Notes under the pieces: model-generated
Seen by the model: only the letters and a program-made list of their open reading frames with translations
Databases searched by the model: none
Told to the model about the DNA's origin: nothing
Source: Halorhabdus utahensis DSM 12940
Lineage (GTDB): Archaea; Halobacteriota; Halobacteria; Halobacteriales; Haloarculaceae
Length of the DNA stretch: 64,000 nt
Direction of reading: 5' to 3'
NCBI RefSeq assembly: GCF_000023945.1
Contig: NC_013158.1
Span: forward strand, 992,001-1,056,000
Shown: piece after piece, positions 33,792 to 62,943 of the stretch
Layout: each line of letters opens with the position of its first letter
Numbering within the stretch: position 1 is the first letter of the stretch
Position numbers and translations under genes: made by a program

Positions 33792-34919
33792 CTATAGCCG
33801 GTCCGTGATGGCTTCGGGCTCGTACTGCAAGGAGAGTTCCCGCGAACGCCCCCGGCCGTCGACGCTGGTGTAACTGGTCTCGATGAGGCCGAGTTGGTCG
33901 AGTTTCTTGATGATCTCCGAGTACCGGGTGTACCCGAGGTCGGTCTCCTCGGCGAACGTCTCGTAGACGTCGCCCGCGAGTTCGCCCTCGTGGTCGGCGA
34001 TCACCGCCAAAAGCGTCTGTTCGCTGTCGGAGAGTCCCTTGAGATGCCGAGAGAGGTGGACGTGTTTGGACTTCTCGAAAGCCGCCTCGACGTCCTCGCG
34101 CTCGATCTGTTTGCTGGCACGCATCTCGGCGTTCAGCCCCGCCCGGCGCAACAGGTCGATGCCGACCCGGAGGTCCCCGCCCTGGTCGGCGGTGAGTTCG
34201 GCGACGCGGTCCAAAATCGGCGCGTCGACGACGCCTTCGTGGAACCCACGCTCGACACGCTCGTCGAGGATGTCGACGATCTCGGGTTCGTCGTACTTCG
34301 GGAAGTAGACTTCCTCCGGGCGGAAAACGCTCTGGACGCGACCGTCGAGTTCCTCGATGACGTCTAAGTCCAGATCCGAGGAGACGACGACCACGCCGAT
34401 CTTCGCCCCGGAGTGGGCCTCGTGGGCGCGAAGGAGCGAGTAGAGGGTGTCGGAGGCCTCACCTTCGTAGAAGAGATAGTTGATATCGTCCAGGGCGACG
34501 GCCAGGACCTCCTCCTCGTCGACGAGTTTCTCGGTGATCTGGCCGAAGAGTTTCTTGAAGGAGATGCCGCTGGCCGGCGGTTCGTACTCGAAAACGCTCT
34601 CGAACAGCCGCGAAAACACTGCATATCGCGTCGAATCGACCTGACAGTTGACGCGGGCGACCCGGACGTCCGTCTGGGAGCCGAGTTCGCCGTAGAGTTT
34701 CTGGACCGCCGTCGTCTTGCCCGTCCCCGGCGGCCCGCGGGCGATGACGTTGAGTGGCCGGGATCCGCGGACGGCCGGCCGGAGGGCGTACTTCAGGCTC
34801 TCCATCTGGCTCTCGCGGTGGCGGAACGTCTCGGGGACGTAGTCGATCTCGAAGACGTGCTCGTCCCGGAAGACGGATTCGTCCCAGGAGAGCATCCCCT
34901 CCTCGGGGTCGTCGGTCAT
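33792..34919 (-). CDS. Orc1/Cdc6-type replication initiator, single-origin-link not evident
   Basis: 375 residues from ATG 34917-34919 (MTDDPEEGMLSWDESVFRD). AAA+ motifs: Walker A ARGPPGTGKTTAVQ, Walker B VLAVALDDINYLF, sensor-1 VVVSSDLDL and an arginine-finger region RVQSVFRPEEVYFP. A C-terminal winged helix ends with TDLGYTRYSEIIKKLDQLGL. No ORB-like repeats were found around this gene, unlike the orc gene at 61027, so it may be a non-origin-linked paralogue. The longer frame upstream to 34988 is not needed. Confidence 0.9.
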   Translation of the reverse strand: MTDDPEEGMLSWDESVFRDEHVFEIDYVPETFRHRESQMESLKYALRPAVRGSRPLNVIARGPPGTGKTTAVQKLYGELGSQTDVRVARVNCQVDSTRYAVFSRLFESVFEYEPPASGISFKKLFGQITEKLVDEEEVLAVALDDINYLFYEGEASDTLYSLLRAHEAHSGAKIGVVVVSSDLDLDVIEELDGRVQSVFRPEEVYFPKYDEPEIVDILDERVERGFHEGVVDAPILDRVAELTADQGGDLRVGIDLLRRAGLNAEMRASKQIEREDVEAAFEKSKHVHLSRHLKGLSDSEQTLLAVIADHEGELAGDVYETFAEETDLGYTRYSEIIKKLDQLGLIETSYTSVDGRGRSRELSLQYEPEAITDRL

Positions 34920-59639: not shown

Positions 59640-60623
59640 TCATTTACGAACCAGCGATTCGTACCAGCCACGATTATCCTGATACCACCCAACGAACTCC
59701 TCGACACCCTCACGGATGGTGTGACTGGGCTCGTATCCGAGCAGTTCCCGAGCACGTGTAATATCCGAATGTGTATGCTCGGCATCGGCGTCGTGACGCT
59801 CCTCATACACTAGTTCCCGCTCTGGCGCGAGTTGATCCCGAATTTCCTCCGCAAGCGTCCGGATCTCGATGTTATCCGTCGATCCGATGTTCAGCACTTG
59901 ACCGTCTGCAGCGTCGGTATCCAACAGCGAAATATTCGCGTCAACAACATCGTCGATATAGGTGAAATCACGGGTCTGAGTACCGTCGCCGTAGACGATC
60001 GGCGGTTCGCCGTTCATACACCGGGAAACGAAATTCGAGATAGCCATGTTCGGGCGCATCCGCGGCCCGTAAACTGTGAAGTACCGTAGCGCAACGGCCG
60101 ACAGATCATACACCTGGCTATAGGCCATCGCGTAGCGCTCGGCAGCCAGTTTCGAAGCCCCATAGGGTGAAACTGGCGTCGTCGGATGGGTCTCTTCGTA
60201 CGGCAGCGACCGCGGGATGCCGTAGACTGACGACGAGGAGGCCATAACGAACCGTTCGATGCCAGTGTCCCGACAGGCATCGAGCAGATTCAGCGTTCCA
60301 TCAACGTTGACCTCGTCGTATTTCCGCGGATCTTCCACACTCGGTCGGACGCCAGCCTGGGCAGCCTGATGGTAGACGTAGTCGGCGTCGGTGACAAGCT
60401 CCGTCACGAGGTCGGCGTCCCTGACATCGCCTTCGATAAACTCGTAACTGCCGTCTCCAGCCTCCGCAGCTTCGCGAGCGATATCGATGTTGTGGCGCTT
60501 GATGTCCAGATCGTAAAAGGGATCGAGGTTGTCCAGAACGACGACATCGTGGCCATCAGTGACGAACTGTTCGGCGAGATGCCCGCCGATAAAGCCCGCG
60601 CCGCCGGTGACAAGAATATGCAT
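59640..60623 (-). CDS. NAD-dependent nucleotide-sugar epimerase/dehydratase
   Basis: 327 residues of the extended SDR family. [20 protein letters not shown] is the NAD site, [15 protein letters not shown] resembles UDP-glucuronate 4-epimerases, and the catalytic Ser and Y-x3-K are in ASSSSVYG and [33 protein letters not shown] closes the substrate site. Supplies a 4-epimerised UDP-sugar for the glycan; UDP-glucose and UDP-GlcNAc are alternatives. First gene of the minus-strand arm, next to a dehydrogenase relic. Confidence 0.9.
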
Positions 60624-60710
60624 GTCCGGAGATGTTACAGGAACGAACTAAAAGGCGTCGTATCGAAGGGCACCTCTCGATCGAGAATGATCACGTTAAC
60701 ATTGTGGGCA

Positions 60711-60854
60711 AGCGCGGCGCTGGTAGTCACCGATTGGGAGGACATCACCGCCCTCGACGAGGAGTTCGACGCGATGGCGACGCCGGTCGTCATCGACGGC
60801 CGCCATGCGATCGATCGTCGCAATGGCATCGTCTACGAAGGCCTGACTTGGTAG
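60711..60854 (+). pseudogene. C-terminal relic of a UDP-glucose 6-dehydrogenase gene
   Basis: The plus strand encodes [20 protein letters not shown] and [25 protein letters not shown] followed by TAG. This matches the last residues of haloarchaeal UDP-glucose/GDP-mannose dehydrogenases (AglM-like). The sequence before about 60711 does not continue the protein, so everything upstream was deleted. Confidence 0.72.
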
Positions 60855-60937
60855 TCCCACGTCCCGCCACAAGACGAAACAATCGACGAATACCTCGTGG
60901 ACTCGAACCGAAAGTCGAAGGAAAATCAACCGGGGAG

Positions 60938-60957
60938 ACACACCCGACAACGAGTGA
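60938..60957 (+). repeat. ORB-like element A (degenerate)
   Basis: ACACACCCGACAACGAGTGA shares the ACACACC block and ACGAGTGA core with elements B-E but has CAA for CAC in the centre. Confidence 0.6.
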
Positions 60958-60983
60958 CGTTCGGACCATCGAGGCCCCAGACG

Positions 60984-61009
60984 CACACACCCCGCACCGA
61001 GTGAAAACA
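60984..61009 (+). repeat. ORB-like element B
   Basis: CACACACC, then CCGCACCGAGTGAAAACA; ends 17 bases before the orc1 stop. Best match to the shared core CACCGAGTGAAA. Confidence 0.75.
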
Positions 61010-61026
61010 ACACAATGCTGAACTCC

Positions 61027-62232
61027 TCAGTCACCCGCAGAATCGTCGAGCGCCTGGATCACGATTTCGGGCGCTCGTAGCAGTCGGTGTTCGAGATAGC
61101 TTCCTCCACCTTGACCGCCACCGGTATGGTTCGATTCGGTGATCCCCAGAAACGACTGCTCTTTCAGGAGCCGATAGACACGATCTTCGGATAGCGGATC
61201 GTTGCCGTCACGTTCGACGAGTTTCGTATAGAGCGTGTATATTCGGTGCGTTCGGAACCCTTCCTGTTCGGGGTTGTCTGTGGTGAGCAGGGCAAGCGCG
61301 TGTAGAATGTATTTTACGTGGGGCGTCGTTCCGCTGACCAGTTTCTCGAAGCGGTTGACCTCAGCTTGCCGAACAGCGTCATCGACGTGCTCGACTGAGA
61401 CAGTCCGGGTCCCCTCTTTCTCCGCGAGTCGTCCCGCTTCGTACAGCGTATCGATCGCTTTTCGGGCGTCTCCGTGCTCTTTGGCGGCAAGTGCAGCAAC
61501 CTTTGGAATGACGCCCTGTTCTAATACCCCATCTTCGAAGGCGTCCGTTCGATGCTCCAGAATCTCTTTGAGCTGTCCGGCGTCGTACGGGTCGAACACC
61601 AACTCGTTGTCCTGTAAGCTAGAGTCGATGCGCTCGTTGAGGCGTTCGCGGAACTCGATCTTGTTGCTAATACACATCGCGCCGATATGCGAATCGGACT
61701 TGCCGCTCTCACGAGCCCGTGAGAGGCTCCGAAGGAGTTCATCGTCGTCCAGTTTGTCGATCTCATCGAGGATGACGACGAAGGAGTCAACATCATACTC
61801 CGCAAGTAACTCCCAGGCGATGTCGCGATAATCAGATGCAGCGATGCCAACCCGCGGAATATCGTGACCAGCGCCGAGATTCGACGCAAGCTCGGTAGCC
61901 ATCTCCCTGCTGGCTTTGGCAGCAGTCTGGTAATCCGAACAGTCAACGTAGGCGTGCTGAAACGACACGTTGTGTTTCCGTGCTTCGTCGTGAGCCCGCC
62001 GGGAGACACACCGCGTAACGAGTGACTTCCCCGTCCCCGTTTTTCCGTAGACGATCGTTGTTTCGGGTGGCCCACCGGCGGTCGCGGGCCCGAGTGCTCG
62101 TCCGATCGCCGCGACTTCATCGTCCCGGCCAACGACTCGTTCAAGCTGTGGTACGTGACCAACCCGCACGAGTTCTCGGTTCGCAAAGATATCCCCTGTC
62201 TCGAAGATATTTGTTGCGTCTTCTTCAGTCAT
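61027..62232 (-). CDS. Orc1/Cdc6-type replication initiator next to ORB repeats
   Basis: 401 residues from ATG 62230-62232 (MTEEDATNIFETGDIFANRE). Walker A YGKTGTGKSLVTR, Walker B FVVILDEIDKLDDDELLRSL, sensor-1 IGAMCISNKIEFRERL, and arginine-rich VFDPYDAGQLKEILEHR. The C-terminal winged helix (about 310-400) ends GGSYLEHRLLRAPEIVIQAL. A TATA box at 62255-62265 fits leaderless expression. Flanked on both sides by ORB-like repeats, so it is probably the cognate initiator of the adjacent origin. Confidence 0.93.
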   Translation of the reverse strand: MTEEDATNIFETGDIFANRELVRVGHVPQLERVVGRDDEVAAIGRALGPATAGGPPETTIVYGKTGTGKSLVTRCVSRRAHDEARKHNVSFQHAYVDCSDYQTAAKASREMATELASNLGAGHDIPRVGIAASDYRDIAWELLAEYDVDSFVVILDEIDKLDDDELLRSLSRARESGKSDSHIGAMCISNKIEFRERLNERIDSSLQDNELVFDPYDAGQLKEILEHRTDAFEDGVLEQGVIPKVAALAAKEHGDARKAIDTLYEAGRLAEKEGTRTVSVEHVDDAVRQAEVNRFEKLVSGTTPHVKYILHALALLTTDNPEQEGFRTHRIYTLYTKLVERDGNDPLSEDRVYRLLKEQSFLGITESNHTGGGQGGGSYLEHRLLRAPEIVIQALDDSAGD

Positions 62233-62254
62233 CAATATTGGACAATACAAAGTC

Positions 62255-62265
62255 ATTATATTTTA
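62255..62265 (-). promoter_or_regulatory. TATA box of the origin-linked orc1/cdc6 gene
   Basis: TAAAATATAAT on the minus strand, centred 28 nt before ATG 62232. Confidence 0.65.
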
Positions 62266-62360
62266 ATCTATCGACCTCGTACCGAGTGTATACACAGATA
62301 AGACGAATACTCCATAAATCAAAGAGCATCAAATCCATTTATATTCAATATTTGTTGGTA

Positions 62361-62386
62361 CACACACCAAGTAACGAGTGAAAGCA
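62361..62386 (+). repeat. ORB-like element C
   Basis: CACACACC, then AAGTAACGAGTGAAAGCA; conserves both outer blocks, diverges in the centre. Confidence 0.7.
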
Positions 62387-62459
62387 CAGGAAAACTCACT
62401 CAGAGACAGAGTAAAATATCGCTGCCGACGCCACCGACGCTGGACCGGTTCGAGACACA

Positions 62460-62484
62460 GTGCTTCACTCGGTGCGAGGTGTGG
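62460..62484 (-). repeat. ORB-like element D
   Basis: The reverse complement reads CCACACCTCGCACCGAGTGA and then AGCAC: full core, one A shorter than the others, inverted relative to A-C. Confidence 0.78.
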
Positions 62485-62515
62485 GAGTACCGCTCCAGCC
62501 ATACCGACGCTGCAG

Positions 62516-62540
62516 GCTTTCACTCGGTGTGAGGTGTGTC
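62516..62540 (-). repeat. ORB-like element E
   Basis: The reverse complement reads GACACACCTCACACCGAGTG followed by AAAGC: full core, inverted, 56 bases from element D. Confidence 0.78.
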
Positions 62541-62706
62541 TCACCGCGCCGGCTCTTCCTCAATCATCACGGGAGTTCGACGACTGGCTTCCCGACCCTT
62601 CGCGTAATGTCCACTGGTCACACGAAGGTAATCTCAGGGCCTTCCTCAGTAACTCGACCGAGGATGTCGTTGCAGTATTTGGCTTCTCGCCGAGAGAGTG
62701 ATTTAC

Positions 62707-62937
62707 TCAGTCTGTAACTTGGATCTGTTCGTCCGAATTTCCATGTGTTGATATTTGTATCATCGTGACTTGTGCTGGATCACCAGTCACCTCGGCATAC
62801 TCTTGTGGCGAGATCCGGAAGACAGTATCTCGCTGACGGGCTTCACGAGCGAGGGCCTGGAACCGTGCACCGCCTCGCCGGCCGCAACTGATAAGAACTG
62901 ACGAATCAATGAATACGACGTCTCGATTGGGGGCCAT
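62707..62937 (-). pseudogene. Truncated PIN-domain toxin gene
   Basis: 76 residues. RDVVFIDSSVLISCGRRGGA supplies the first PIN aspartate and FRISPQEYAEVTGDPAQ the glutamate, but the frame ends soon after, in ISTHGNSDEQIQVTD. The C-terminal half with the remaining acidic residues is absent (compare the 186-residue PIN protein at 38929). It begins 7 bases after the HTH stop. Probably inactive as a nuclease. Confidence 0.72.
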
Positions 62938-62943
62938 TCCGAT

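Follow-up and report, generated by a model that had tools for sequence, protein, structure and literature searches.

A candidate secondary replication origin of Halorhabdus utahensis with an ORB inside the coding sequence of its own orc1/cdc6 gene

Introduction

Among the described systems closest to the locus studied here is oriC3-cdc6D of H. hispanica. In Wu et al. 2012 (PMC3528665) this origin is called deficient, with no ARS activity, and a 2014 paper by Wu et al. (PMC4441112) attributes its inactivity to a transposase insertion. Both papers tie this origin in Haloarcula to a polysaccharide-rich variable region, and Wu et al. 2012 (PMC3528665) describe the ORB core as specific to the origin family. 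A second system is H. hispanica oriC2, whose downstream ORBs (oriC2D) exert negative control, likely by titration (PMC3936714). In bacteria, initiator sites are known within the initiator coding sequence, namely the DnaA boxes inside dnaA of Campylobacter jejuni (PMC6052347) and Bdellovibrio (PMC5124646). The main haloarchaeal origin survey looked for ORBs in intergenic regions only (PMC3528665); because of this scope, an initiator site inside an initiator gene would be missed.

The genome of Halorhabdus utahensis DSM 12940 is a single 3,116,795-bp contig (NC_013158.1). The window, which is the whole 64,000-nt stretch that was analysed, covers its positions 992001-1056000, and feature coordinates below are those of the window. 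An earlier note, made from the sequence alone, had proposed that one end of the window holds a probable replication origin with an orc1/cdc6 gene and five ORB-like repeats.

Results and discussion

The initiator gene and its start

The orc ORF matches TIGR02928 at 356 bits (cut-off 181), together with the domain profiles Cdc6_lid, Cdc6_C and AAA, in agreement with the orc1/cdc6 identity given earlier. The encoded Orc1/Cdc6 is full-length and has both the AAA+ and the winged-helix domains, and the closest solved structures are the archaeal Cdc6 entries 2v1u and 2qby. Counted from the Walker A Lys, orthologs keep their start near -207/-198, which supports a start at 62232.

61027..62256, minus strand: orc1/cdc6 initiator gene, longest ORF of 409 aa; likely start 62232, giving 401 aa
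62256..62266, minus strand: TATA-like box of orc, TTAAAATATAA, read from the sequence, some 29 nt ahead of the probable start
62234..62353, no strand: AT-rich stretch, 71% AT, candidate unwinding element and promoter region

TTTATA-like boxes occur at the equivalent place in the orc orthologs. The AT-rich stretch of about 120 bp beside the initiator start had been pointed out before, and it stands out in the genome: of the genome windows sampled, 0.05% are at least as AT-rich as the 120 bp starting at 62234. On the map below, the stretch falls to the orc side of ORB 5, and the 75 bp between the inverted pair are only 45% AT. A second Orc1/Cdc6 gene lies 27 kb off, at 33807-34877, with no obvious ORB-like repeats around it.

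The ORB array

Seven elements were found at the orc locus. Scores are those of a position weight matrix (PWM).

60937..60961, plus strand: ORB 1, downstream of the orc stop, 28.2 bits
60984..61008, plus strand: ORB 2, downstream of the orc stop, 36.8 bits
62005..62029, plus strand: ORB 3, intragenic, in orc codons 78-84 (SLVTRCV) just past the Walker A Lys, 30.6 bits
62269..62293, plus strand: ORB 4, promoter mini-ORB without the ACACACC/G-string end, abutting the orc TATA box on its upstream side, 19.2 bits
62361..62385, plus strand: ORB 5, right arm, 31.6 bits
62461..62485, minus strand: ORB 6, left arm in orc orientation, inverted, 31.5 bits
62516..62540, minus strand: ORB 7, left arm in orc orientation, inverted, 37.4 bits

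All five elements reported earlier (60938+, 60985+, 62362+, 62465- and 62520-) are present, and the final two run opposite to the other three, as had been stated. The count was incomplete: the full ORB inside orc (ORB 3) and the truncated ORB at the promoter (ORB 4) had been missed.

A search of the whole 3.12-Mb genome for the core, which the earlier note had named as a check, bore out its expectation. ACACACC-N5-ACGAGTGAMA gave 12 matches at three or fewer mismatches, and all 5 with at most one mismatch are at the orc locus. The remaining 7 carry three mismatches, and the reported element at 62465 is among them. The PWM gave no site of at least 16 bits in 0.81 Mb of sequence sampled elsewhere. 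The clustering of ORB elements at the orc locus is not chance.

The array has the layout of a haloarchaeal origin, as had been claimed. The inverted repeats adjoin the orc gene and their sequence is specific to the Orc family; the G-string ends point outward on both arms of the seven-site map, as in oriC1 of the same genome, and the AT-rich stretch lies beside the arms. By sequence inspection, the oriC1 arms and the elements at the orc locus also share a register of C-rich block, spacer and CGAGTG core. The elements at the orc locus differ from haloarchaeal oriC1 in having ACACACC in place of the long C/G run, and the ORB end reads GGTGTGT at the same place where the halophile G-string has a long run of G.

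Relation to known origins

The canonical oriC1 of this genome consists of two perfect inverted ORBs at genome positions 1,595,720-1,596,335, which is 0.54 Mb from the orc locus. Its ORB (GTTCCACTNGAAACGAAGGGG) was found in the genome only there, at 1,595,720 and 1,596,315 (1.596 Mb), and the earlier remark that the core here is unlike that of oriC1 ORBs holds. The TTCCACT-type ORB with a long G-string next to the gene, which characterizes canonical oriC1, was not found at the orc locus. Because canonical oriC1 lies elsewhere, the orc locus is a candidate secondary chromosomal replication origin, one of the two readings that had been offered.

The other reading, an integrated plasmid or replicon junction, was not demonstrated. 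Orthologs (about 60-84% identity) are spread over many haloarchaeal genera, and most of their contigs are chromosome-sized. On these grounds, and as no sign of a boundary had appeared, the plasmid-junction reading was set aside. One ortholog is on plasmid NC_013747.1 of Haloterrigena turkmenica. No relatives of the Orc protein were found in viral contigs.

One genome of our set (G066) has six chromosomal orc genes with 11 ORBs downstream beside the fifth, as published for cdc6E/oriC2D (PMC3936714). We infer that this genome is H. hispanica. Its fourth orc would then be cdc6D, because of the gene order, the identity of the 11-ORB fifth gene with cdc6E and the orthology of the fourth gene to the orc studied here. 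This ortholog (locus L127) is 78% identical and shares the ORB type, the promoter site and the intragenic site. It also shares the setting, a variable region with polysaccharide genes (PMC3528665, PMC4441112). With its orthologous initiator and identical ORB type, the orc locus is assigned by sequence to the oriC3-cdc6D origin family. The two copies differ in that an insertion parts the left ORBs from the gene in H. hispanica, whereas the array is continuous here. L127 is about 99% identical to L126 (genome G211) except for this 2.0-kb insertion between the left ORBs and the gene. The insertion (L127:722-2726) is IS605-like with tnpA- and tnpB-like ORFs, and it reproduces the published disruption (PMC4441112).

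Compared with H. hispanica oriC2-cdc6E and its oriC2D, the locus likewise has ORBs on either side of the initiator gene, but the ORB sequence is another one and there are 2 downstream ORBs rather than 11. No intragenic ORB was seen in H. hispanica cdc6E.

Alternatively, the locus could be dormant or in decay, an origin that came along with the glycan island next to it and no longer works as one. This would fit the reported lack of ARS activity of the homologous oriC3-cdc6D (PMC3528665), and the glycan island is low in GC and adjoins an IS5 element. GC skew, taken from 10-kb samples spaced about 39 kb apart across the genome, also goes in this direction, with no clear turn at the orc locus; the skew change that the earlier note had named as a test did not appear, and the signal at oriC1 was itself only a shallow minimum. 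Nevertheless, the orc ORF, both arms, the promoter and the AT-rich stretch are all intact here, and the 2.0-kb IS605-like insertion between the H. hispanica arms (PMC4441112) is absent from this copy. We consider dormancy unlikely.

Selection on the intragenic ORB

The PWM was built only from 174 elements outside orc genes and was then used to score the genes. The ortholog set comprised 36 genes of the clade with Cys83, of which 25 have Thr or Ala at position 81 and 11 have Ser81. The sister clade has His at the Cys83 position and external ORBs of different sequence.

Codons 78-84 are the best site within the gene in 23 of the 25 Thr/Ala81 orthologs, with 26-33 bits, on par with the external ORBs. 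When synonymous codons were resampled for these proteins, no more than 0.6% of the trials came up to such a score, and the score of ORB 3 in Halorhabdus utahensis was reached by 0 of 1000 resamples; since the orthologs share ancestry and are not independent, within-gene ranks and the sister clade serve as controls and exact probabilities are not to be read from these values. Over the 36 orthologs, codons 78-84 ranked first of 290 seven-codon windows for synonymous conservation and first of 218 by parsimony. The equivalent codons of the sister clade showed ordinary synonymous conservation (rank 85 of 230; by parsimony 53 of 125), and a search of sister-clade genes for an internal ORB of their own type found none. 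A different segment, codons 194-200 (MCISNKI), is also under strong synonymous constraint, in both the Cys and the His clades.

The Arg82 codon of the Thr/Ala81 genes is AGG in 15 and CGG in 10 of the 25, with no others, and AGG makes up 2% of the Arg codons elsewhere in these orc genes. Either codon leaves the ORB's conserved CC in place, and only the free ORB position changes between them. Ser81 introduces a disfavoured base and breaks the ORB; the key codons are intact in 24 of the 25 Thr/Ala81 genes vs. 1 of the 11 Ser81 genes. On the tree, the residue class changed about 6 times. Because of the codon rank, the AGG/CGG use, the Ser81 contrast and the sister-clade contrast, there is strong evidence from codon choice that the intragenic ORB is kept by selection on DNA and not on protein alone.

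The segment follows the Walker A motif, a conserved protein region, and the pattern might in principle come from translation, mRNA structure or amino-acid constraint, with an incidental ORB match. This appears very unlikely to us. No such bias exists at the equivalent sister-clade codons, and the bias is gone when Ser81 breaks the ORB. Moreover, the preference for the rare AGG falls at the very place where the ORB requires CC, A and C alternate at the free position, and the match to the external-ORB matrix spans the full 25 nt.

The evidence for selection does not tell what the intragenic site does. Since about a third of the orthologs (11 of 36) have no intact copy and keep their external ORBs, the intragenic ORB is probably auxiliary, helpful rather than essential. 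The same genes bear on a role as a working origin arm, in which Orc bound there and at ORB 5 would bracket AT-rich DNA and the origin would overlap the gene start. Such an arm would account for the orientation of the intragenic ORB, which in every gene that has one matches that of the remaining right-arm ORBs, for its nearly fixed distance to ORB 5 (343-368 bp in most orthologs) and for the AT-rich peak between these two sites. It also has a parallel in the two DnaA boxes inside dnaA that sustain a minichromosome in Campylobacter jejuni (PMC6052347). Yet those 11 orthologs have kept external ORBs, and the inverted arms are present even without the intragenic ORB. We regard an arm function as possible but improbable.

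The promoter mini-ORB and control of initiator supply

The sequence TCACTCGKTRYNNGGTC, an ORB without the GTGTGT end, lies immediately upstream of the TATA-like box of the orthologs. Within two mismatches it was found in 30 of 36 genes vs. 1 of 7200 shuffled segments, and it looks like an autoregulatory operator. From its position, Orc bound there would compete with TBP/TFB. Several sister-clade genes also carry a promoter mini-ORB. The distance from the promoter site to the intragenic site is 249-273 bp across orthologs and helical phase is not kept. A strict fixed-phase DNA loop from promoter to intragenic ORB was rejected, as the two spacings seen most often, 253 and 268 bp, are about 1.4 helical turns apart.

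The promoter and intragenic sites exist and match the external ORBs. On balance we favour, with some confidence, a secondary origin of the oriC3-cdc6D family that has its own Orc1/Cdc6 and whose ORBs in and around that gene would limit initiator supply. The inverted ORBs at 62461 and 62516 face the oppositely oriented ORBs on the orc side, a layout suggestive of origin function, and DNA would open at the AT-rich stretch beside the arms. Orc may bind the promoter and intragenic ORBs in its own gene, and newly made or excess Orc would then repress its own gene or be titrated there. The promoter site would act as an operator and the intragenic site as an operator or roadblock, while the downstream ORBs could form a sink, as in H. 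hispanica oriC2D, the nearest parallel that has been tested (PMC3936714). The initiator level and origin firing would thereby be held down. This model is weakened because the H. hispanica family member is inactive (though disrupted) and GC skew is unsupportive.

The chances seem to us about even for a further proposal, that the codons of the ATP-binding loop of orc double as an ORB for the encoded protein and form, with the promoter mini-ORB, a built-in autoregulatory and titration circuit. The DNA site would have constrained codon choice, and perhaps the residues Cys83 and Thr/Ala81, across many genera. Should Orc bind the intragenic ORB, the making of the initiator in archaea would be tied by direct feedback to how far the origin is occupied, much as with the DnaA boxes in dnaA and its surroundings, and a dual-coding sequence would lie next to a protein motif that ranks among the most conserved. 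The bacterial cases differ in that the initiator is DnaA, not Orc1/Cdc6, and the Bdellovibrio boxes are at the 3' end of the gene; the site here is in P-loop codons, where codon selection is demonstrated. It can be removed by synonymous changes that leave the protein unaltered, which makes a clean test possible. In the open-licence literature we found no relevant earlier report of ORBs inside orc genes, which may still be drawn in figures or supplements. The intragenic ORB is the new part; the IS605-like disruption of H. hispanica oriC3 had already been published (PMC4441112).

Genomic surroundings

Glycan-type genes were found within 10 kb of the orthologous origin at 14 of 20 loci vs. 2 of 20 control positions, which were taken 300 kb away in a nearly identical genome set. 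The earlier note had read the glycan island as bounded by a replicon junction. Its recurrence fits, and extends, the published association with a variable-region hotspot rather than a junction, and no plasmid junction was shown.

A sugar epimerase or other glycan genes lie beside the origin at 59640-60623 of the window and at loci L233, L236, L242, L245, L249 and L250. GC content is low at genome positions 1046001-1102000, around the glycan island and the origin (samples of 0.54 and 0.47 vs. about 0.64 elsewhere). By reading of the sequence, 60690-60854, between the epimerase and the downstream ORBs, contains a short fragment like the C-terminal end of a nucleotide-sugar dehydrogenase. On the other side, where the ORBs are followed by the gene of a DUF7437 regulator, an intervening PIN-domain-like sequence with an internal stop (62595-62939) was likewise read as possibly part of a broken toxin-antitoxin-like pair.
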